Part shown: piece by piece, positions 2,393-38,791 of the stretch
Layout: each line of letters begins with the position of its first letter
Numbering within the stretch: position 1 is the first letter of the stretch
Assembly (NCBI RefSeq): GCF_910592395.1
Contig: NC_088322.1
Coordinates: 3,222,001-3,286,000 of the forward strand
Direction of reading: 5' to 3'
DNA from: Lineus longissimus
Lineage: Eukaryota > Nemertea > Pilidiophora > Heteronemertea > Lineidae
DNA length: 64,000 nucleotides
Program-made: the position numbers and the translations under genes
The notes under the pieces: model-generated
Database searches by the model: none
Told to the model about the DNA's origin: nothing
Seen by the model: the letters and a program-made list of their open reading frames with translations, nothing else

Positions 2393-2711
2393 GTGAGTAT
2401 ATAATAGATTATACAATCATGTAGTTCAGAACAGTTGCCTTTACTACGTAGGCATGCAAATGAGCTGAAACGTATAATTTTGGATGCCTCATGTCGCAAA
2501 TTCCCTACAAATGTAATGAAAATCGGTTTCATTTGGTCAATGATGCCTTACCACTGTAAAACGAAGACCCAACTAAAAACGAAGACCCTAAGTGCTATAT
2601 AACGAATATCCAAAAATAAAACGACTACCCTATGTTTTATCAAACGTTTTATAGTTGGATCTTTGTTTTATACACACCCGAGAGATTTCATAATTCTCAT
2701 GTGTTCCTTAA

Positions 2712-2729
2712 AGGAAAGCTCTGCCCATG
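2712..2729 (+). repeat. Left terminal inverted repeat of the Kolobok-type element
   Basis: AGGAAAGCTCTGCCCATG, directly preceded by TTAA (2708-2711). It matches the right end in inverted orientation at 15 of 18 positions. Confidence 0.85.
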
Positions 2730-3012
2730 AAACTCATTGTCAAGTGACGATAATTTGAATAATCAATCGAAAATAAATGTATCCTGATAATTTGACGAAA
2801 ATCTAACTTCGTCATCAGTGACTTTTATCTGTTTTATCAGTAAAAACTCATAAAACTGTGGCAGACACCATTTTGGCCAAAACCAACAAGTCACATGATC
2901 TATTTCAAGGGAAGTGACGTCACATGTGCGTATGACATGTGAAGGCAGAAGACTCCATTTTGTTATTGTTTATCGTTCGTGTCCAGAATTTTATGAAATG
3001 AAATGCTAAAAA

Positions 3013-3380
3013 ATGCCGTATTGTATCGCGAAACACTGTACCACATCGGACAGGAATAATCCCCGAAATGCACATTTCCATAAACTGCCGGTCAATGCGA
3101 AAAAGAAGCACATTCGAAGGCAGTGGTTGGCGAAATGCGCCCGCCCTGATCCGAAGGATGTTCAAGCCGAGTTTGCAGTGAGCATTTCGTGAAAGAGGAC
3201 TACGATAATTGGGGGCAGTATCACGCTGGTTGTGCTGATAGATTACGTCTGAAGGATGAAGCTGTCCCATCAATATTTGCTGATTCCGAGACGCCACCCA
3301 CAGTTCGCCCAGTTGGAAAATCTCCGTCAGCCAGTGCAAAACGGAGGAGGCAGAGGCTAGCATCTAGGAACAGAAATCAG
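3013..3380 (+). pseudogene. THAP zinc-finger exon of the Kolobok transposase, with a one-base frameshift
   Basis: ATG at 3013 starts MPYCIAKHC..., followed by the basic W-containing core of a THAP finger. The closing CSEHF (C2CH signature Cys and His) lies in another frame from 3174, so one base was gained or lost near 3172-3176. Downstream the second frame stays open to NRNQ and a CAG|GTGGGT donor at 3380 (phase 0). THAP domains are about 80-90-residue zinc-dependent DNA-binding modules that often bind transposon ends. As it stands the exon would terminate inside the domain. A sequencing error is possible and would restore the gene. Confidence 0.8.
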
Positions 3381-6300
3381 GTGGGTAGCCTACAGTGTAT
3401 TTGACCTGTACATCATACATGCAAGACTGCTAGGCAGTCTGCATATTTTCTACATGAAGGCCTATATCATGATATTGTTGATATGAAAATGATGCTGCAT
3501 TCTAGAATGTACTGGTGTAGTGTAAGCTAGGGCTACCGTACCAGTGCAGGTTGTGTGCCTATGCCTATGGTGCCTGCCCATGGCCATGTTGTGGTCAGGC
3601 TATAGGCGGTCTGCTGATGTGGTCATACCGCTGTATGTATTCTGTCAACAGTAGGCTTGTAGCCATTGCATCGATTTCATTCCATCCGGTGCGCCGACCA
3701 GGGGAGGATGAAATGAACAGAGTACCCTGCATATACAATGATAAATATCAACAATTAGTTAGGCTAGGGGTAGATACAACATCTGGCAGCAGCAGGAGGA
3801 TTTTTGACAACAGTGGCAGGTGCATTTAACGTAGCAGTAAACCTGGGTTGTGTGTGCAAAAATTAAAAAAGTAATTGCTATATCAGTAGGAAAACAACAT
3901 GCCTATTCTTCCTATACACAGCCTACATGTATGCTATAGAATTATTTTTTTCTTTCAGTTCTTGCAGAATGTTCTTTTGCCCACTGATGCTCAACCTGGG
4001 GAACCCATGTCCGACGATTGTGACACAAGTGGTCTTGATCAGACGATCGAATTTGAGAATGGAGAAGTGAGTGGTCCTCAGTCTGAAAACCTAGCCATGC
4101 CTGCCCCTGCTCTGGTCGGCACTTCAGCAATTGGAGAAAAGCACTGTAAATGTTGCAGACATGCAATATCAAACAGTGGTAAGTAAATGTCATATACTAC
4201 ATGTCGTAGCTTTGCATACTTATATTTTCAGCCATGTTATATCACTGATGTGTCCGATAATGTTAAATCAAATTCATGGTACAAGGAATTACCTGTTCAA
4301 TTTGTCAATATATACAGTGATGCTATACTACAAGATCCATGTTGCCACATACAGGGAGAGAATTTAACTAAGGCCATGGCTGCGATGCTCACCTCAGTTG
4401 ACCGTGAAAGAATATTCTGAGGACATGAGTCCTCAGATTATTCTTTCATGTTTAACATAAGCAAGGCCCACATTTTTCACAAATTAATGGCCTCAAGATG
4501 GGTGCCCTAAATGTCTAGCCCTGAACATGCCAATGTAATTGTTACACCAGTTCAAGATAATTGAAAAGATTTATATCTGCATGACCCCTGGCACAACAAT
4601 AATGGTACTCGCCTTGTTATGTTTGTTACTTATGTTTTGTTGCTTATTATGCAATTTGTAAACTTATGTTTCTCCAAACTGATGTTTTGTTCATTTTTTT
4701 GTGCAGATAAATCTATCCAGACTGACATGGACGAGTTACTATCTGCCATTGCCAAGGACCACACATACGCAGCAACCAAAGATGTGGTGGTGAGGACTCG
4801 AAATGCAGTTTCGATGGATCTCAAAGTGTCCGAGGTAAGCCTGCCATCTGCAGACACACCCGTCATCAATGAGATTGAGACATCCAGCCAGACGTGCCAG
4901 ATTGAGGATTTCAGTTCAGGTTCTGATGACAGTGACTGTGAAATGGAGGATGATAAAAAGGACTTGGACTTTGCCCCTCCAAGTGAAAGTGAAACTGGCT
5001 CTGAAGACTATAGTGATGTTGAACTGGAGGACACTACATCCACTTCGGCATTTGAAGACATTGGGGAGTATTCTGTGCCACATAATGTGGCAGATGAAAG
5101 AAAATTTCTTGTTTTTGAGTCGTGTGTTGTGGATTTGTTAAGGAAGTGCCAAAAACCAGGTTGTGCTGCAGAGGTCCGGGTAATGAAAAGAATTTTGTCG
5201 GGGTCAAGGATAATAATATGCACAAAATGTGTAGCTGGGTGTACCTTCACTTGGTCATCCCAACCAATACTTAACAAAATGGGGGCTGGAAATCTTTGTC
5301 TCTCTGCAGCAATCCTGTTTTCTGGCACTACCTATGGTAAGGTACAAGACATGGCTGACTATTTGAAGATGCCAGTCCTCGGTAGAAGTCAGTTCTATGC
5401 CCTGCAGAAGCGCTATTTGTTTCCTGTGGTCAATGAAACTTGGATTTCATGCCAAAAAGCGGTGCTGGATGGGCTCAGTAGGGAGCCCAAGGTTGTTCTG
5501 TCTGGCGATGGGCGTTGTGACAGCCCGGGGCACTGCGCCAAATATGGGACGTATTCCCTCATGGATGATGACACGGGGCAGATTGTAGACTTCGTTGTTC
5601 TCAACAAGGCAGATCCCTGTGTCAAAAACTCTAATGCCATGGAGCCCATGGGCCTTAGAGAGTGTCTGTGCCATGTCAAGGAATGGGGCATCAGTGTGAC
5701 TATTCTCACCACAGAGAGGCACAAAACTATCAGGAAAATATTGCGGGTTGAATTCCCAGAGATTGCCCATCAATTTGATCTGTGGCATTTTTGCAAGAGT
5801 ATTGTAAAAAAAATTGTGAAAGCCTGTGGGAAGAAGAAAGCACTAGCCCCATTACTTGGCTGGCTGCAGTCAATAAGCAATCACTTCTGGTGGTGCGCCG
5901 AGTTGTGCAAAGGAGATGTCGATATTCTCAAAGAGAAATGGGAGTCGGTCATCTACCACACGGCCAACATCCACACCTGGAAGGACAAAAAGTTTTTCCA
6001 TGCATGTCAGCATGCACCCCTCAGTGATGAGGAAAGAAGTGGGAAGTCATGGTTGGTAGTTGGTTCCGATGCACATGATGCACTTGTAAAGGTTGTCAAA
6101 AACAAACTCATTCAAGCTGACCTCAAATACTGTGCCCTCTTTTGCCATACTGGTCATCTTGAGGTATACCACTCCCTGATACTGAAGTATGCCCCCAAGA
6201 GACAACCCTTTTCCTATGAGGGAATGGTTTGCCGCACCCAACTGGCAGCAATAGACCAGAACTTTGGTTCTGGCCGACAGCAGACTACAACAAAATCCAA

Positions 6301-6559
6301 CGAGCCGAGGTACAATGTTGTGAACCCCAAGTCATTCACGAACAGAGATAAATGGGTTGCAAAGGCAGTGAAAGTGCCAAAGGACCATTATTATCAGGAG
6401 GATATGGTTAGGGATGTGGTACTCATGCGTACACATGGCCTGGAGATGACACATGCTGTCCTTCCTGAAGTGAGTCAAAATATGGCCAAATGTGACAAAC
6501 CAGAGAAAAGTGCCGTAATCAGTGCAACCCTACAGAACACTCGTTTCAGAAAAAAGTAG
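3013..6559 (+). CDS. Kolobok-type THAP-DDE transposase (3 exons: 3013-3380, 3959-4178, 4707-6559)
   Basis: Apart from the one-base THAP frameshift, the exons join cleanly: phase 0 at 3380/3959 and phase 1 at 4178/4707 (G+AT gives Asp). The full product would be about 810 residues: THAP finger, an acidic linker with two Cys pairs, a CxxC...C zinc-like segment (about 5145-5235), then an RNase H-fold core. Core motifs are GDGRCDSPG (first catalytic Asp codon about 5507), TTERH (about 5711-5722, where I expect TDRH), QFDLWHFCKSI, and GHLEVYHSLILKYAPKR (probable catalytic Glu near 6162). The catalytic exon is uninterrupted for 617 codons. Asp-to-Glu at the second site may abolish activity. Nuclear, binding the element's own ends. 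Confidence 0.8.
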
Positions 6560-6967
6560 TATTTAGGATTGTATTGACACTTTGATGTCGGCACTCAGTG
6601 AACATGTAAACTAGAAAAAAATTACTATTAAAACTACATTTTTATTTTGATATCTGTAAGTACAATTTATTAGTATCCAAACAAGCAATACCATAAAAAT
6701 ATTTTCCAAGTAAACATTTAAAAAGAGTGTATCATTCTATTTGCTAGTTTTTTCAGTTTGAAAAAGGGCTTACAATACCTGTATTGTAGTGTTTTTTCAG
6801 TGTCCATTTTTGGTCAGTATGATGACAACAATATTGTAGGCTAAAAATGTTTTCTTCTGGGCACATTTGGAAATAACATTTCCTCTGGGACAATTATTGT
6901 TAAAAATCTGGTCTTCAGATTTAATGTCATGCAGTCTTGTACAATAACTATTCATTGCTGGGGAGTA

Positions 6968-7840
6968 CTAGTCTGGATACACAGTGTCAGTCTCATCAGC
7001 ATCTCTAAATCCAACATACTGTCCACTTGGCTCTGGATAAGTCTTTCTGATGATCCTGACGACACACGAGGGGATAACTTTTCGCACACCTTTTCCGAGA
7101 CGATCGTGAGTCCACCAGGTGAACTGCCTGTATGCAGCTAATCGGAAAGTTCCGAAATGGAGAAAAGCACTTGTAAATTCTCTTTTAAAAGTTGGAATGG
7201 GAATGATGGGGCTGAGTTTTACTGTGACTGACTGTTTCAGAAACCTTGTACATGAAATATTGAAATATTGTATCTGTATATATTCATGTTTTAATATCAG
7301 TACCTATATGGTATTTGTCTTCAGAAAAATATAATCAACGTTTGAGTAACATTACGTTTTTGTCTTTTATTTCAACTGATCTTGGACTCGTAGTAAAATA
7401 CTAAGTAAAATATCTACCAGGATCAATCACAAGACCTTGGTGATGGCTCACCTTTCACCAATGGGCTCTTTGAGACTTGTCTTTTTCACATCCTTCATGG
7501 CAACCAGTGCAGTCCTCAATATTGCCTTTGCCAGAACGACCATATTGAACACGCTGTGCAGTATTATGCAGTCAAGATCCTCCTTGTATATTTTCCCCTC
7601 AAGGGCGTCAAGTTCGTGACAGCAAAAGTTCATCACCGGGTTGTTCATGGATGCACAGCGATCGCACACACACCAGTCGCTCGCTGGTAGTGCAACCCGC
7701 GCCTCAAAATTTATGGCTTGAGTAAATGGTCCGTCATCATCCTCTGTTTCAACGGGGATCTGTTCTTCTGCACTGTCACTGAGCTGTACATTCTCCTGTA
7801 CGACTGGCTCGAATCTGTATGGCTGGCTGGATTCCTCCAT
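6968..7840 (-). CDS. P2X7 C-terminal 'ballast'-domain protein carried by the transposon (exons 7840-7452 and 7169-6968)
   Basis: Two exons total 591 bp (197 codons, 196 aa). The AAAG|GTGAGC donor at 7452 and the ACAAG acceptor before 7169 join in phase (AG+T). The Cys-rich block WCVCDRCASM...NFCCHEL and the tail AAYRQFTWW...IPSCVVRIIRKTYP...GQYVGF match the cytoplasmic zinc-binding ballast domain of P2X7 receptors (AYR..W, PSC, IRK.P and GQY.GF are shared). There are no membrane segments, so it is not a channel; free-standing ballast-domain proteins occur across Metazoa. ATG 7840 is used here. A second ATG at 7899, one frame off (MAEYYSDSSSD), may be the ancestral start before a frameshift. 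Its role in transposition is unknown; zinc-dependent scaffolding is an inference. Confidence 0.78.
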
Positions 7841-8133
7841 TTAATGGTCGAATATCACTGATATTTTCAGCATCTGAGGACGAATCCGAATAGTACTCCG
7901 CCATGTTTCTTTGTACAGCTGATTCTTTGTTTACATTTTGGTACGCACAGGTGACGTCATGAACCAATTCCTGATCATGTGACCGTTCTAAATGGCGACT
8001 TGCCCTAAATTTGCACGCTCATATCGAATAAATTGCAATAAAAACATAATTCGTCAATAAATATCGCTGATTCTTTCTGAATATATTGTTTTTATATTGT
8101 TTTCACTAATATCGATGTTTTCATTTGATTTAC

Positions 8134-8151
8134 CATGAGCGGAGCATTCCT
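8134..8151 (-). repeat. Right terminal inverted repeat of the Kolobok-type element
   Basis: CATGAGCGGAGCATTCCT followed by TTAA (8152-8155). Its reverse complement differs from the left repeat at three positions. The 290 bp between the ballast gene start and this repeat is A/T-rich and presumably holds that gene's promoter. Confidence 0.85.
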
Positions 8152-8517
8152 TTAAAGGACCTCTGTATTGAATCGCCTAGCTGGCTTATGATCACCTCCT
8201 AAAGGGAGGCACCTAGCGGCAAACGCATGGAACTAGGGAAAAACGGAACCAAAATACACAGTGGTGCTGCCTGTTCAGTGGTTTCGCTGTAGCCACACCA
8301 CATCAATAGCTTCCATGAACATTCTATTGAGTTATTACGCACAGCTGCGAATGCTAGAACTAATGCATGTAATACTTTCAACCATACCGAACAGACCGGA
8401 AAGTAGCCAGCCAGCTGCGATCGTGGCGCACTCTGCCGGGAAAAGGTTGCAATACAAGGCCCCCCAATTATTTTGTTTAACCTTCCAAGTTCATTGTTCT
8501 ACATTTTCGTATTTCAG

Positions 8518-8817
8518 TGAAAGTCAGAAGACAATCAGGTACAATCCTTCTTCCCATGTAATGTTATTGAGGGAAGTCCTCGCACTTAATCCGTTTGAAG
8601 ACGCCACACAGTGGGATGAGGTCGCCAGCAACTTTAACAAAAGCCTCCGCTCCACACGCCCTAACGTTCTGGCAGTCAATACGCGTTCAGTAAAGGAGAG
8701 GGTAGAGAAACTGCTGAAGGCATTCCGGACAGAGCAGATGGAAATTGTCTCGCTGAAGGAGGAGGCGTTACGGAAGGCGACGGAGGCAAAGGCACCAACC
8801 GAAGAAGATGTGTATTG
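8518..8817 (+). CDS. Myb/SANT-like DNA-binding exon of the Harbinger-associated protein
   Basis: The acceptor tatttcag ends at 8517. The first base completes the Thr codon from the 2392 donor. The exon encodes ESQKTIRYNPSSHVML... and a compact helical domain with ALNPFEDATQWDEVA, SLRSTRPNV and RSVKERVEKLL motifs. This is typical of the Myb-like or trihelix-like proteins that PIF/Harbinger transposons encode beside their transposase. Downstream is a charged helix (QMEIVSLKEEALRKA). A stop follows at 8815-8817, so either the exon is terminal or it is spliced at GAT|GTGTAT (about 8811) to the coiled-coil exon at 11375, which keeps phase. In related elements the Myb-like protein escorts the transposase to the nucleus and contacts the ends. 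Confidence 0.65.
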
Positions 8818-8916
8818 AAACGACATTTGCTGTATGTATAGCATCCAAAACCTACATGGGATCTGGCCAATTTAAGCGTCAAATGACAATTATTTATCAC
8901 ATAATGCCTCTTATTA

Positions 8917-10898: not shown

Positions 10899-11318
10899 AG
10901 GGCCAGTGTATTCCAATTTCGAGGGGGAGCCCTTCCAAACGGGGTCAAATAAAGGACTCGGTGAATGCATAGCAGCAAATCTTCATCATAGGCCATAGGG
11001 AATCCCTTCAGCTATCCAAAAAGGTTTATTTGACTAAGAGTGACCATCTCATTCAAAAGTAACAGCTCGTTTCATGGAGGCCAATTTTGCATTGAGCATG
11101 TATTTTGTTACACTGCAATTACTGCATCTCTGACAAAACACGCTTTGACTTTTGAATGGGTTGACCGATTTCTATGAAACAATCGGCATTTAATTTGTGA
11201 AAAGTTTCTCCACCACACCCCGTAGCCAAAAGTAGCGCACACACATTTGCTGTGATTTTACGTGCTTGCTAAGGGTGGGCCTACGTAGTGAATTTCCAGA
11301 ATTGAATACACTGGCCTT
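10899..11318. mobile_element. 420-bp MITE flanked by TTAA
   Basis: The left terminus AGGGCCAGTGTATTC follows TTAA (10895-10898). The right terminus is the inverse of AAGGCCAGTGTATTC and precedes TTAA (11319-11322). One mismatch in 15 bp. No open frame. TTAA targets are used by Kolobok and piggyBac elements, so this is a likely non-autonomous member mobilised in trans. Confidence 0.75.
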
Positions 11319-11374
11319 TTAAGGTCTCTTTTAATAGTGAGTTCCTTATACTGCATTCCATTGCAGACGATGAG

Positions 11375-11590
11375 ACTACACCGAAAAAGGTGAAGAAGTC
11401 GGGAACGTTAGATGGCTACGTCAACATGAAAACGTCCGAGTTGGAGTTGCGCCGCGAGGAACTGGAGATTAAGAAACAACAATTCGAACTGGAGAGGCAA
11501 GAACGGAGGCAGCGGATGGAAAACGAGGCACAGGACAAGGCAGCTATGCTATCCATGATGAAGACCATCATGGACGGACTTAAAAAGTAA
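11375..11590 (+). CDS. C-terminal coiled-coil exon of the Myb-like protein
   Basis: The exon follows acceptor-like AG dinucleotides at 11366 and 11374. Starting at 11375 keeps the phase of the 8518 exon; starting at 11367 does not. It encodes TTPKKVKKSG..., then a long charged helix (ELELRREELEIKKQQFELER...) and ends KTIMDGLKK at 11590. Such C-terminal coiled coils are usual in Harbinger Myb-like partners. AATAAA at 11636-11641 can serve as the polyadenylation signal. The exact upstream junction is uncertain because the candidate donor (GAT|GTGTAT) is weak. Confidence 0.55.
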   Translation, partial: TTPKKVKKSGTLDGYVNMKTSELELRREELEIKKQQFELERQERRQRMENEAQDKAAMLSMMKTIMDGLKK

Positions 11591-12033: not shown

Positions 12034-13104
12034 TTAGTTTCCAACATAATCCCGAAGTGTTGGAGCCTCCATACCAAAGTAGGAGCCAACTAGGGAACCA
12101 TACAGACATGTGTGGAAGTTTGTGAACAGGCCAGCTACTAAATAGTATTTACCCACTGGTTGCAGGAATACCTTCAAATTCTGCTTGAAGTCAACGAAAG
12201 CCCAATATTTCACAATTTTACCGAAAGTCCATTCCACCGAAGTGCGTACCTCGGACATTGCGGCATTAAACCCTTGTTGTTCATTGAGTCCGGCTGCTCC
12301 TTGCCTAAACAGTGAGATTAGCCACGGACGAATGGGATACGCAGGGTCACCATATATACAGTAATGTTCTCCGTTATCTGCCCTAGGCAAATTGGCTAGC
12401 TGATGATGGAGATCACTTTCTCTCAAAATACCAGCGTCATGCCTACATCCTTCCACCGGACCGTACAGGTTTGCAATCAACCAATTGGGAAGGGTCAACG
12501 ATTGAAATTTAATGGCATGCACCCTCTTATGTCCATTAAATACCACCTGTTGATATCGAATTGGTCGACATATGGGTCTTACAGTCCCATCAATGAACCC
12601 AAAACAGTTCTCCAAAGGTGCTCCACGGTCACGAATGGCTTCGGCGTATGATCGGAGATGACGGTCATCCATCCACGGTTGGTCCAAGCGAGTTAAAAGA
12701 TGACCATGGCGTTGGTAGAGAAAATCCACAGTCTCATTTATGGCTAGTGAGAGGATTGACTGCGGCCGTCCAAATAATTTTTCTAGGTCCACGAGACGGT
12801 TTGGGTAGACAAACCGCCTGAGGGTCATACACAGTGCGTCTACTCCATTTACAAGGGCACCGTTTTTGCAGGATATCTCCGGCGGTATTCCTAGGTCAGT
12901 GAGCATAGTTCTGATATTGTTTTTTGTGAACCTAAAGTTTTTCACACAGTTCATGTCACTTATCAAATCAAGGTCAAATCGGTCCCAGTTGACGTCGAAC
13001 GTAGTTTCTTGAAGTATTCCATTCTCCACTACAAAATCGATTAATTCGTCATCTTCTAATTCTATTCCCATGGCCAACAAATTTCCAGGCATAGCGGCAG
13101 CCAT
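12034..13104 (-). CDS. PIF/Harbinger-type DDE transposase
   Basis: A single uninterrupted 356-residue frame starting MAAAMPGN at 13104. The length matches HARBI1-like nucleases (about 350 aa). The N-terminal helical region contains IRTMLTDLGIP and YPNRLVDLEKLFGRP, the usual DNA-binding lead-in. The catalytic core shows FGFIDGTVRPICRP (Asp about 172), GPVEGCRHDAGIL (Asp about 223), GDPAYP (about 252-257) and SVEWTFGKI (Glu about 291), so the acidic triad is present. It converges on the Myb-like gene, the common arrangement in this superfamily. Nothing visible inactivates it. Expected target duplications are 3 bp (TWA type), but I could not place the element ends. Confidence 0.88.
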   Translation of the reverse strand: MAAAMPGNLLAMGIELEDDELIDFVVENGILQETTFDVNWDRFDLDLISDMNCVKNFRFTKNNIRTMLTDLGIPPEISCKNGALVNGVDALCMTLRRFVYPNRLVDLEKLFGRPQSILSLAINETVDFLYQRHGHLLTRLDQPWMDDRHLRSYAEAIRDRGAPLENCFGFIDGTVRPICRPIRYQQVVFNGHKRVHAIKFQSLTLPNWLIANLYGPVEGCRHDAGILRESDLHHQLANLPRADNGEHYCIYGDPAYPIRPWLISLFRQGAAGLNEQQGFNAAMSEVRTSVEWTFGKIVKYWAFVDFKQNLKVFLQPVGKYYLVAGLFTNFHTCLYGSLVGSYFGMEAPTLRDYVGN

Positions 13105-13497
13105 GATGAATTTCCTACCTTCATAAAAGGCCTAGGCGAGGCAAGAGATCCACCATACAAACGGCATAGTTTGGCCTACCGGACATGGGAAATTACAACC
13201 TCGCGACAGAGTCAATAGGCCTATCTGTCACTTTGCATTTAATTCCATTCATCCTCCAGGGAAACTGCTTACAGACATTTCATATACAATAGGCCTATAT
13301 CCAATGTCTAGCAGACAACAATAGATACAGGTGGCACACCTATCGGTGGTGGCTATGACTGAAGTTTCCAGTTGTTAAATCTACAGACGCCGCCGAGATC
13401 CGTGCCTCGATTTACTATCCGGAATCAGGATCGGGAAAACCAACGCATTTATTGATGACATCACACACAAATTTGGTCGTTCTCTACGATTAGATTC
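13105..13497. other. Non-coding flank upstream of the Harbinger transposase
   Basis: Presumed promoter and right end of the Harbinger unit. It is rich in the AGGCCTA motif common in this window. No terminal repeat or gene was identified. Confidence 0.4.
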
Positions 13498-29444: not shown

Positions 29445-32191
29445 ATGACGACACGAAGATACAACCGAACCACAGCACCAAGATGAAAATGCCCTGCTGA
29501 GAAGACCAAAGTACCTCATCCGTGCGGCGACTGTAAAGCAACCACAACAAAAACAGACTGCATCTACTGCGAAAGCTGCCGAAGCTGGTTCCACATTCAG
29601 TGCCAACAGTTAGACCACGACAGCTTCGAAGTCCTACAAGGATCCCCACTTGGCTACTGGTGTTCGCGATGTTTGAAGTCCGGTTTTGGAGTGACTGGGT
29701 ACAACTACGACATCGGTTTGGACAGGTTAAATGACAACACGCAGCACTTGAGGGATGCAGCCAGACGCGAGGTGATATTTCTACGATCACAACAAGACAT
29801 CAAGCGAGACGACGTGAAGTTTACCGGACTGGGCCATATGTTGGAAGATAGAGCGACTGCAGATATAATTGAAAAGCTGGGAGGTACATGTGATGACAAG
29901 ATCCCGATTGAGACAACTGGTGATGGGAGCTGCCTTTTCAATGCGATATCGACCGTATTAACTGGTTCGGAACACCTAGCGAAGCAACTACGACTACGTA
30001 CCGCCATTGAGCTGATTCTGCAAGAAGACACTTACCGTAACATGCATCAAGATGATCGCGACTGGTTGGCGCTTAATACAAATTACGAAGATGCAATTCG
30101 AGACTGCACCAGACGGAGCGGATATTCAACGGGGTGGACAATGCATGCTGCAGCAAGTGTTATCGGCATACCAATTGTTTCTGTTTATCCCGCCATTAAC
30201 AGCCCTATGGATTCGGCAGTCCGCGCTCTTAACACTGTTCTGCAACCACGGCGAACAAGTCTACGATCAAACCCGATCACTGTAATGTGGACTCACACAG
30301 AAGAAAAAAGAAACCAACGGATCTGGACCCCAAATCACTTCGTTCCAATGGTCAAGAACAGCCGGCCCCGGCAGCAAAATACTACCTCTAGTCCCGCCCG
30401 CTACGACAATGATTTCCCGCCATTGAGCCCGCACGCCTCCTTCTTCCTAGATGACGAACCACGTACAGCCACGCCTTTCGCCGATGATGATTCGTTGCCA
30501 CTAACCGACACAAACGACAACGAACATGCTGAAGATGTTTCAACACACTCGACCGGTCTAATCGTCTCTACTAGCATGGGTGCAGATAATTTACGGGAAC
30601 CGTCAAACGATCGCATCGTTATAACAGAATTTGTGAAAGACATTGAACGTGTAATAGAGACAATCAAATCAGATGAAATTACTGGTATGGAGAAAATTCC
30701 ACCTGGGATCAAAGAAAACGTGTGTTTTGTAGTGAACAACCGAGCCAATATCGAACGCAGAAATAACGGCGGCAAAAGTAATTTCACTGACGACTGTGAT
30801 GCATGGGAAAGAAAGGGAACACCAAGAAAAAAATATACGCGAGGATGGCCGACGGCGGGAACTTCACATATGTGACTAAAAAAGACAATGTGTATGGCAG
30901 AGAAAAGAAAAAGACACGGACACCTCTAACACCTCAACCCATTGAAGACGATATAACAATTGTGAAAAGATACTACTGTACATTAAAACGTCAACCTTCA
31001 TTCAAACGGAGAATAACGTGGTTCGAGAAATTGGTAGATGGCGCCACCCTTTCCACAGCTCGTGATCCACTTCAATTCGCTTTAGTAGAGTACATTGGTA
31101 TATGGCCTGAAGATATATGCGTGCACGGCAACTGCAGGAAGACCGCCAACGAATACGTCAAGACCACTAGAGACACTATGAACGGTATTAAAAACAATGT
31201 CAAGTCAGCCCCAGCTCGTGATGTGTATTCCAATCCAGTCCTGAAAGATCCCGAAAACGCACCACGTGACCTAAAACAAGTACAAAATGCAAAATATGTC
31301 CAAGAACGAAAGAAACGCACCGAGAGCACCAACCATACGCAGCCAAGATGCAATGCAGCAGACGACCTACAATATGTGCTTAGCCAGATGCAACGGGACG
31401 AAAATTCGATTGTCCAAGAAATCATCCATACGAAAAATAAACCCCCAGCAATAATTATGTATACCGAAAATCAACTCAACAACATCGAAAGCATCTGTGA
31501 TAACAACTGTCAACACTCTAGTGTAGTCGGAATTGACAGAACATTTAATCTCGGTCCCTGCTATGTGACTACAACTGTTTTCAAGAATATAAAGCTGGTC
31601 CGTAAACAAACGCAAGAACCACCTATCTCCATCGGTCCACTTTTCCTACACTGGGACGGGCAGTACGAAATGTATCATTCGTTTTTTTCACATATCGCCA
31701 AGAAGTTGAACGGGATTTACCTGCAGCATCATTGTCGAATTTCGTGTTAGGCTCAGACGAAGAACGAGCAATAACTAAGGCTCTTGCTGACTGTTTTCCG
31801 GGAGCTACGACTTTACTCTGCACGCGACATCTCAAGGAAAACGTGAAACGTAAACTTACAGACCTTCTAGTGGACAATACCCTTAAGAATACAGTTGTTT
31901 CCGGGATTTTTGGACAATACGGGATTGTTTATGCAAGCGACCAAGAGACATTTGATACAAAGGTTTTCGAACTTCGAAGCACCGTAATCCCAGACAATTT
32001 TGCGCCGTATTACGACAACCTTATATTAAAGATAATAAATCACGTTTTTGAACCACGCCAACGAAATGACCACTTACCAGTATCGTGGACAAACAACAAT
32101 GCAGAATCTATGAACAACTTGTTAAAGCTAGCCATCAACTGGAAACCCTGTAAACTACCAGAACGAATCGAAAAAGTCGGCAACGTCATTA
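29445..32191 (+). pseudogene. MULE-type transposase gene with PHD finger and OTU protease domain (5' part)
   Basis: ATG 29445 opens MTTRRYNRTTAPR and meets TGA at 29484. The same frame then runs through a PHD finger (HPCGDC, DCIYCESCRSWFHIQC, YWCSRC; about 29518-29665). An OTU-type cysteine-protease domain follows (TTGDGSCLFNAIS, catalytic Cys about 29930; NHFVPM, catalytic His about 30340). The frame ends at 30875; a second frame (30803-31750) carries VVGIDRTFNLG and a third (31732 on) GSDEERAITKALADCFPGA, CTRHLKENVKRKL and WTNNNAESMN, the MULE catalytic region. At least two frameshifts and one nonsense codon inactivate it. A Gypsy element splits it at 32191; the rest is 41986-42318. Confidence 0.82.
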
Positions 32192-32458
32192 TGTGGTGCC
32201 CTAGCCTAAATGTATGCTCCCGTATGGAGCAGTGAGCAAGAGGTCATCGGCTAGGGCAGCAGACCAGTCCTGTCTTCGGCAGCTCTTGTTGGAGCGCGCG
32301 GCGGCCGCGGAAGAGATGCGTTGTGGTTGTTGTTGTCAGAAAAACATGTGAGAATATTGTGTAGAAGGTTGTTCGATTTGCTGAATAAAAAGGCAGAAAT
32401 TACCAGAAGAAACTTAGTTCGTCCATTTATGGTAAGAGTAGGAACGAAAATCACGACA
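32192..32458 (+). repeat. 5' LTR
   Basis: 267 bp, TGTGGTGCCC...TCACGACA. It contains AATAAA (about 32383) and an internal stem (CCCTAGCC/GGCTAGGG). It carries a 10-bp insertion near its 3' end relative to the 3' LTR. Confidence 0.92.
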
Positions 32459-36217: not shown

Positions 36218-37361
36218 TCAAGAATCATCACACAGGGACAAACTGGGTTCTGCCCTAGACGCTTGGTTGTCCAAAAGTGGCCCTGCCTTGGGAACCACGA
36301 ATTTCTTGATTAATCCAGCACAGGCGACATTGACGGACACTCTGAATTCTGCCCTAGAAATTCAGCGGTCAAAAAGTGGCCCCACCCTGGATACCACCAG
36401 TTCGCAACTTAACCCAGCAGCCCCAGAGTTTTGCCCAAAATCGCCATCCTTGTCAGTTGGGCAAATTCAGTTCACAGATGGAAGTTTATATGCATCTGGA
36501 TTTATTGCCGACATACCTGCTTCATTACTCTTGGACACCGGTGCCGCTCGGACAATCATCAGTAGTAATCTATGGCATCAGTGCAATAAGTCTGGAAGTT
36601 TTGAACTTACAGGAGTTGATGGCTCCCTGCACTCTGCCACTGGTCAAAGTCTCAAGATATTAGGGGTGGCTGATCTTGCCTTCCAGTTGGGATCACAGGC
36701 CTTCGTTCACCCCACCATCGTTGTTGAAGATCTGGCATATCCGTGTCTACTTGGGAGCGATTTCTTCGCGGGACACAATTGTAGTATCAGTTATGAAACA
36801 GCAACTCTGAAAATAGGCGAGATTGAAATTCCATTGCGCCAGCAATGTGAAGAGCCAAATATTTGTCGCATTGTCCTTGGCAAAACAACAAAAATTCCGG
36901 CAAATACAGAGATGATAGTACCTGGAAAATTAGCTAAGTTGCCATCGAAGAGCCACCTGGTACATGGACTGGTAGCTGAAGGCACGGGTAATCACAACTT
37001 TGTCACTGGGCGATCTTTGGTGTCTTCAGATCATGGTAAGGTGCCAGTGCGAATTGCTAATTTCACAGATAAGCCTATATCAATCCATACTAATCGTACC
37101 CTAGGCTGGTTCCACCCAGTGATGGAAGTCGAAACTGCTATGGAAATGGAAAAATTCTGCAGTGCGCCACAGGCAGAGTATACAGCCCCAAAATATATCA
37201 AGAGGGAGAAGAAGTGGAAGAAGCCTGACCATCTCTCTTCCAAAAATAAAAGGATACGAGTGGTGCTACCTCTACCGTTAATGCTAAAGTCAAAGAAACC
37301 AGAAGTATGCCTGGCCCAAGGGCCACCCCTGGTGATATCAATTTTGTATCATCAGAAGTGA
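36006..37361 (+). CDS. Gypsy protease region of Pol
   Basis: The frame is open for 451 codons. The retropepsin active site LLDTGAARTIIS lies at about 36528-36563 with flap-like VDGSLHSATGQ downstream and the conserved CLLGSDFF (about 36750-36770) near the domain end. The first third is spacer with a diverged internal duplication (LDAWLSKSGPALGTT / LEIQRSKSGPTLDTT). The domain cleaves Gag-Pol during assembly. The next domain is in the -1 frame with a 55-bp overlap, which may be programmed or mutational; no classical slippery heptamer is evident. Confidence 0.85.
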   Translation: MTAQNGAHVSILPYKIGKLKTGVVEGRTDPDTTVRASLETETLNNLGTLEPQLSEEELWITPVHTTSLVVDQESSHRDKLGSALDAWLSKSGPALGTTNFLINPAQATLTDTLNSALEIQRSKSGPTLDTTSSQLNPAAPEFCPKSPSLSVGQIQFTDGSLYASGFIADIPASLLLDTGAARTIISSNLWHQCNKSGSFELTGVDGSLHSATGQSLKILGVADLAFQLGSQAFVHPTIVVEDLAYPCLLGSDFFAGHNCSISYETATLKIGEIEIPLRQQCEEPNICRIVLGKTTKIPANTEMIVPGKLAKLPSKSHLVHGLVAEGTGNHNFVTGRSLVSSDHGKVPVRIANFTDKPISIHTNRTLGWFHPVMEVETAMEMEKFCSAPQAEYTAPKYIKREKKWKKPDHLSSKNKRIRVVLPLPLMLKSKKPEVCLAQGPPLVISILYHQK

Positions 37362-38791
37362 GTAAACCAGCCGGGACTCAAGGACATGGTAGCAATTCAG
37401 GTTCTTCAAAACCTCTCCCTTCAGGCTTTATTGAAGGGGGAGGGGGTGCTGATTTGGATGCCCTCTTTGAAAAACTTGATATTGACAACTTGAAAATTGA
37501 TGAGGAACAACGGTCCATTGTCAAGGATTTAATTGCTGAACATCAGTCAGTGTTTTCGATGGATGATTTCGATCTCGGGAAGACCAAGGTGATCGAGCAC
37601 AAGATTGAGACAGGTGATGCTGTTCCCATTAAACAGAGACCTCGTCGTGTCCCACCACATCACCAGAAATTTGTGGACAAGACAGTGAAGGAGTTGCTTG
37701 ATCGTGAACTAATTGCAGAGTCACAAAGTCCATGGAGCTCCCCGATTGTCTTGGCCAAAAAACATGATGGTTCTTACAGACTCTGCATTGACTATAGAAA
37801 ATTAAATTCTTGTACAGTGAAGTCGGCCCAGCCATTAGCGAGGATAGATGATACATTAAGTAAACTCTCTGGATCCATTTACTTTTCTTGCCTCGACTGC
37901 GCGAGCGGATACTGGCAAGTGGGAGTAGCGGCAGAGGACCAACTTAAAACTTCATTTGTGACTCGGGTAAAGCAGTATGAGTGGCGGTCCATGCCATTTG
38001 GACTTACAGGAGCCCCGGCCACTTTCACCAGATTGATGAACATTGTATTTGGCGGCCTGGACTTCTGCTTGGTTTACCTCGACGATATTATAATCTTTTC
38101 ATCATCTTTCGCAGAGCATATTGACCAACTACATCAGGTCTTCACTCATTTAGAAGAAGCTAACCTTAAACTCAAGCCCAGCAAGTGTAAACTATTTCAA
38201 GGCATGGTGAAGTTTTTGGGCCATATTGTTAACTCTGAGGGAATCTCTACCGATCCAGAAAAGATCCAGAAGGTGGTTGACTGGCCTACCCCAACAACAG
38301 TCACAGATGTTCGTGCATTTATGGGGCTCGCAACTTATTATCAGGAATTTGTGCAGGATCTTGCTGCAATAGCTGGTCCTCTTCATGCTCTGACAAGAAA
38401 AAATGTACCCTTTATCTGGACAGACCAAAGTGGGAATTCGTTCCAACAGCTGAAGAAATGTCTCACTACCTCCCCAGTATTAGCTTATCCAGATTTCGGA
38501 GAAGAAGCAGGGCGATTCATCTTGGATTGTGATGCCTCAGATACAGCATTGGGTGGTGTCCTGTCACAAGAGCAAGCCGATGGAACTGAGAAGGTCATTG
38601 CTTATGGCAGTAAAACCTTGCAAGGTGGTGAGACCAATTACTGTACCACTCGTCGGGAGATGTTGGCATTCGTGACATTCGCCGAACATTATCGTTATTA
38701 CCTCCTTGGCAAGAAATTTCTGGTCAGAACAGATAATATGGCTCTCCGTTGGCTGTTGAATTTTAAAGAGCCCTCCGGCCAAATAGCCTGA
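37307..38791 (+). CDS. Gypsy reverse transcriptase and RNase H, ended by a nonsense codon
   Basis: RT motifs in order: SPWSSPIVLAKKHDGSYRLC, DYRKLN, FSCLDCASGYWQV, MPFGLTGAPATF, VYLDDIIIF (the YxDD polymerase box at about 38073-38100), FLGHIVNSEGI. The RNase H domain shows LDCDASDTALGGVL (first Asp), TRREMLAFV (Glu), VRTDNMALRWLL (second Asp). The frame stops at TGA 38789-38791 where relatives read QLARWLERL, consistent with one CGA-to-TGA change; the downstream reading frame continues unbroken. RT copies element RNA to DNA; RNase H removes the RNA strand. Confidence 0.93.
   Translation: MPGPRATPGDINFVSSEVSKPAGTQGHGSNSGSSKPLPSGFIEGGGGADLDALFEKLDIDNLKIDEEQRSIVKDLIAEHQSVFSMDDFDLGKTKVIEHKIETGDAVPIKQRPRRVPPHHQKFVDKTVKELLDRELIAESQSPWSSPIVLAKKHDGSYRLCIDYRKLNSCTVKSAQPLARIDDTLSKLSGSIYFSCLDCASGYWQVGVAAEDQLKTSFVTRVKQYEWRSMPFGLTGAPATFTRLMNIVFGGLDFCLVYLDDIIIFSSSFAEHIDQLHQVFTHLEEANLKLKPSKCKLFQGMVKFLGHIVNSEGISTDPEKIQKVVDWPTPTTVTDVRAFMGLATYYQEFVQDLAAIAGPLHALTRKNVPFIWTDQSGNSFQQLKKCLTTSPVLAYPDFGEEAGRFILDCDASDTALGGVLSQEQADGTEKVIAYGSKTLQGGETNYCTTRREMLAFVTFAEHYRYYLLGKKFLVRTDNMALRWLLNFKEPSGQIA
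37417..37446 (+). repeat. Internal copy of a 30-bp hairpin plus purine tract
   Basis: CCCTTCAGGCTTTATTGAAG followed by GGGGAGGGGG; identical to 41282-41311. The CCCTTCA/TGAAGGG stem precedes a 13-base purine run inside the Pol coding region. Confidence 0.8.

Follow-up and report, generated by a model that had tools for sequence, protein, structure and literature searches.

A stretch of 64,000 nucleotides from the ribbon worm Lineus longissimus (contig NC_088322.1, positions 3,222,001 to 3,286,000; hereafter the window, whose own coordinates are used throughout) contains an element of 5,440 bp at positions 2712–8151 with TTAA on both sides (Table 1). The element holds two genes. The first, on the plus strand, is related to transposases with THAP and DDE domains. 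The second, on the minus strand, spans 6968–7904, lies tail to tail with the transposase gene and wholly between the element ends, and is related to the ballast domain of the P2X7 receptor. It is called KolX here, after the second protein of the Kol0-lineage Kolobok transposons, which was identified as a ballast domain by Kojima and Bao (2022; PMC9587614).

Both open reading frames (ORFs) of the minus-strand gene matched the Pfam family PF20478 (P2RX7_C) above its curated cut-off. The E value was 4.9e-10 for ORF 6968–7303 (profile positions 144–192) and 3.9e-6 for ORF 7448–7840 (profile positions 74–129), and the two matches were in the correct order and on the correct strand. When searched alone with phmmer against the solved P2X7 chains, the tail ORF gave a weak match (best E value 0.0089), while no solved P2X7 chain was matched by ORF 7448–7840 up to an E value of 1. 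The joined KolX protein was 57% identical to the related protein P0001 over 98% of its length. It possesses the PSC, IRK and GQYxGF motifs and the cysteines of WCxCxxC, FCC, DC and SC, and all seven conserved zinc-coordinating cysteines are present. Different from P2X7, KolX has no channel part. Moreover, among the residues R546, H547, R574, R578 and K583 of the guanosine diphosphate site of P2X7, only R546 and R578 were kept in the alignment of the window protein to P2X7; with three of five residues changed, the nucleotide site of mammalian P2X7 is not preserved. R546 and R578 were also the only ones kept in the non-vertebrate ballast sequences of Rump (2020; PMC7016195). Ballast proteins accounted for 291 matches at an E value of 1e-3 or lower among 7,995 scored candidates.

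The first-pass annotation of this DNA had placed the gene at 6968–7840. Its start is probably further out, at the ATG at 7904, from where the predicted N-terminus resembles that of P0001. Read against P0001, a 4-bp duplication near 7821–7829 breaks the frame and severs this start from the remainder of the gene. In addition, an intron at about 7451–7152, positioned by means of relatives, interrupts the ballast of KolX, whereas that of P2X7 is encoded in one exon (PMC7016195). GG was found at the expected splice acceptor instead of AG; an upstream AG could be used in frame at the cost of a few extra residues. The related proteins P0003, P0004 and P0005 end or leave the alignment at the same point, which suggests that the intron is common to the close clade.

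In the transposase gene, the match to the THAP family (PF05485), a domain usual in Kolobok (PMC6004289), was split, with profile positions 1–44 in one frame and 50–87 in another. The DDE transposase exon was 51–79% identical to P0014–P0022. Its GDGRCDSPG, DLWH and HTGHLEVYH motifs aligned with those of the relatives, and a C/DxxH motif was found between the second D and the E, as in Kolobok transposases. Among the matches listed, 112 of the 120 transposase relatives had the TDRH motif with its Asp, and the motif was missing from the other eight; the window copy has TERH. We infer that the Asp of TDRH is the second catalytic residue. Given the slip in the THAP frame, the Glu in place of this conserved catalytic-type Asp, the 4-bp duplication in KolX and the acceptor without AG, this copy of the element looks dead. 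Transposases of the toothfish Dissostichus were also related to the window transposase (4706–6556), with identities of up to 79% (P0015, P0023 and P0024). Different from these transposase relatives, the nearest named kin of the ballast gene was in a ribbon worm, and horizontal transfer and a shared old family are both conceivable.

The element ends have the target-site duplication TTAA and the 5'-RR...YY-3' form described for Kolobok (PMC9587614), with AG at 2712–2713 and CT at 8150–8151, and their 18-bp inverted sequences match at 15 of 18 positions. About 200 bp inside, a block of 18 positions (2915–2932 and 7942–7959) matches at 17. The gapped alignment of the end regions over about 240 bp was judged without a shuffled control. 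Among the 10,605 inward TTAA-flanked pairs that lie 0.1–10 kb apart in the window, the top score of 15/18 was reached by two pairs. No second copy of the element was found in the window, where blastn of the element returned only itself and a short internal hairpin. In non-animal collections, where absence is uninformative, P0001 had 5 pattern matches in viral contigs, and the transposase alignment A2 had 3 there and 54 in bacterial and archaeal genome contigs; none was confirmed as a locus. Finally, the target flanks TTCC-TTAA and TTAA-AGGAC (2700–2715 and 8140–8165) are similar to the element's own ends, AGGAA...TTCCT. Because of this resemblance, the target may be an older element end or a preferred palindrome.

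Table 1. Features of the Kolobok-type element, in coordinates of the window.
Feature	Position	Strand	Evidence and remarks
KolX exon 1	7452..7904	-	ATG at 7904, internal ATG at 7840; donor AAAG|GTGAGC; PF20478 match in 7448-7840; resembles P0001 N-terminus
KolX exon 2, through the ballast tail to the stop codon	6968..7151	-	PF20478; phmmer match to P2X7; predicted join, after P0001 and P0002
THAP domain, transposase N-terminus	3013..3404	+	PF05485; split over two frames, slip near 3169-3189
ORF with probable middle transposase exon	3890..4186	+	ORF list; exon assignment and limits putative
DDE transposase exon	4706..6559	+	PF20700; GDGRCDSPG, TERH replacing TDRH, DLWH, HTGHLEVYH
TERH site	5708..5725	+	Glu replaces Asp of TDRH
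Left TTAA target-site duplication	2708..2711	.	Read directly
Right TTAA target-site duplication	8152..8155	.	Read directly
Left terminal inverted repeat	2712..2729	+	Starts 5'-AG (RR); 15/18 match to right end
Right terminal inverted repeat	8134..8151	-	Ends CT-3' (YY)
Left end region	2712..2955	+	Gapped alignment to inverted right end region, about 240 bp, degenerate
Right end region	7921..8151	-	Inverted relative of left end region

These features are best explained, with a probability of roughly 0.9, if 2712–8151 is a Kolobok DNA transposon of the Kol0 lineage, now decayed, with KolX as its second gene. Similar to the Kol0 lineage (Kolobok-1_XT type; PMC9587614), the element has the TTAA duplication, RR...YY ends, a DDE transposase with DxxH and a second gene for a P2X7-type ballast. 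Different from it, the window copy is decayed, and the intron inside the ballast of its KolX may be a further difference. The KolobokP, KolobokD, KolobokE and KolobokH lineages also combine a Kolobok transposase with an added second protein, but there the addition is a nuclease or a helicase in place of a ballast (PMC9587614). An antisense P2X7-ballast gene with the zinc-binding cysteine block and the PSC/IRK/GQY.GF tail, inside a TTAA-flanked element of THAP-Kolobok type, had been proposed from the letters of the window, and this description was borne out. The word cargo that went with it is misleading, however, as KolX is a standing rather than an occasional gene of Kol0 and has been reported in that lineage from vertebrates, annelids, cnidarians and sponges (PMC9587614). 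From membership in the family, the THAP part of an intact protein would bind the element ends, and its DDE part would cut the element out and paste it into TTAA. KolX would be a zinc-stabilized accessory protein that aids transposition through contacts with DNA or protein. Given its published standing presence in the lineage, such a role is somewhat favored; in the literature covered, no function of KolX was reported.

Several observations weigh against this interpretation. The pair of ends at 10899–11318 ties with those of the element at 15/18, so that the element's ends alone are not proof, and the element is known from one insertion only. It was compared with Kol0 and KolX by their published description, not by reference sequences. 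The ballast fold of KolX was accepted on the domain matches and the likeness to P0001, whose predicted fold is shared with the P2X7 ballast. That prediction was made for P0001, not for the window protein, and P0001 has Ser at one of the seven cysteines. In addition, scattered ballast genes were described by Rump (2020; PMC7016195) with a neighborhood conserved across phyla, a pattern more in keeping with host genes than with transposons.

The last point also bears on the view that a host ballast gene was captured once by the element and has no role in transposition. Ballast genes, also termed zinc-coordinating domain (ZCD) genes, occur in many animals with one or a few (<10) per species and a conserved neighborhood in several phyla, as expected for host genes (PMC7016195); this survey also contradicts the first-pass description of them as numerous. 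Nanor and the other ZCD proteins are, similar to KolX, short and composed of an N-terminal part and the ZCD, but they were described as host genes (PMC7016195), while Nanor was regarded as a domesticated KolX by Kojima and Bao (PMC9587614). The persistence of the cysteines in one copy says little against such a passenger. The published finding of KolX as the second protein of Kol0 in vertebrates, annelids, cnidarians and sponges counts against it, and we consider a passenger unlikely, although it is the strongest of the alternatives. Neither 'transposon' nor 'mobile' appears in the main text of Rump (2020; PMC7016195). One tick gene model in that work has a 'TAHP' domain before the ballast, which we read as THAP, as a Kolobok would yield.

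That a Kolobok element merely lies around an unrelated host ballast gene is very improbable. In favor of such an accident, ballast proteins are common among the scored candidates, but the gene lies wholly between two TTAA-flanked ends and the gene content is that of the published two-protein lineage. Moreover, the flanks resemble exons of another plus-strand gene: stretches 2307–2392 and 8518–8818 join in frame across the element with a GT donor and an AG acceptor, both picked by eye, and an in-frame join has a one-in-three chance. No Pfam match above cut-off was obtained with the joined product, and no relative of it was found. The element seems to lie inside an intron of that gene, which is support and not proof. 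Finally, an ORF artefact, conceivable for short ORFs in a broken gene, was rejected as next to impossible on the two independent, ordered Pfam matches above cut-off and the likeness of the joined protein to P0001.

Relationships among ballast domains were examined from 130 rows, which comprised 126 listed proteins, three P2X7 sequences out of four distinct ones and the window protein; the listed ballast proteins included 120 of the 291 matches. Thirty-seven rows were dropped, 31 of them without the cysteine motif that marks the start of the domain and six with fewer than 85 residues, leaving 93. The ballast proteins split into group I (55 rows, including the window protein) and group II (35 rows), whose named members are from bivalves, lancelet, lungfish and some fish. 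The cysteines were found in 50–55 of the 55 group I rows per column, 34–35 of the 35 group II rows and all three P2X7 rows, although rows had been preselected by the first cysteine motif, which biases the first three columns. A PYxFEP-like N-terminus was found in 40 of the 55 group I rows and in none of the 35 group II rows. RHxAYR, which contains the equivalent of P2X7 H547, was found in all three P2X7 rows and 27 of the 35 group II rows, but in only one of the 55 group I rows. Rump (2020; PMC7016195) stated that H547 is not found in invertebrates; its equivalent was, however, present in oyster P0012 and lancelet P0223.

In a quick tree of the 93 rows, P2X7 fell on the group II side with a Shimodaira-Hasegawa-like approximate likelihood ratio test (SH-aLRT) value of only 62. 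In a careful tree of 91 rows, from which the long rows P0236 and P0175 had been removed, group I was separated from group II plus P2X7 with support of 100/97, and P2X7 lay within group II beside 31 of its 35 rows with 98/79. The approximately unbiased (AU) test did not reject group II as one clade without P2X7 (p = 0.195), which counts against a position of P2X7 inside that group, and it was borderline for P2X7 with the clade of the window protein (p = 0.051) and with three group I fish rows (p = 0.043). Group membership was defined on the first tree, and with a P2X7 branch of about 1.8, long-branch effects are possible. We tentatively suggest, from these alignments and trees, that there are two old ballast groups and that the tail of vertebrate P2X7 may have come from group II rather than from KolX of the type found in this element. 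Kojima and Bao (2022) concluded that P2X7 arose from a P2X4-like gene fused with KolX (PMC9587614). If the tail came from group II, this route would need group II on a transposon; otherwise, capture from a host gene would have to be assumed. The proposals of the first-pass annotation that ballast genes spread by transposons and that the P2X7 tail originated in this way were right in outline. Neither was new, both having been in print since 2022 (PMC9587614), and P2X7 groups apart from the window's type with mixed tree support. The two-group split itself may be new, but it may also be in print already.

Other candidate mobile elements were noted in the window. The apparent spliced gene that the Kolobok element interrupts (2307–2392, 8518–8818 and about 11368–11590, plus strand) lies near a DDE_Tnp_4 transposase at 12034–13131 on the minus strand; at a guess, both are possibly parts of one Harbinger-type element, i.e., a transposon in a transposon. 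The TTAA-flanked stretch of 420 bp at 10899–11318, whose inverted ends match at 15/18 positions, resembles a small non-autonomous element from a different family that also uses TTAA. At 29487–32235, an ORF contains a PHD finger and, below cut-off, an OTU-like match; the ORF after it matches a MULE transposase, again below cut-off. This arrangement is reminiscent of the Mutator elements known to carry OTU proteases. The reverse transcriptase and RNase H of a long terminal repeat (LTR)-type retrotransposon, probably Gypsy, are at 37250–38791, with more ORFs on either side.

The locus is an ordinary member of its family, and its explanation was already available; it adds an example and not a discovery. 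It was found without knowledge of the family, the two genes and the two ends could all be seen, and it illustrates the published claim that a domain of an inflammation receptor descends from a transposon protein. The split into two ballast groups offers a concrete test of that claim, namely from which of the two the P2X7 tail was taken and whether that group is transposon-borne.
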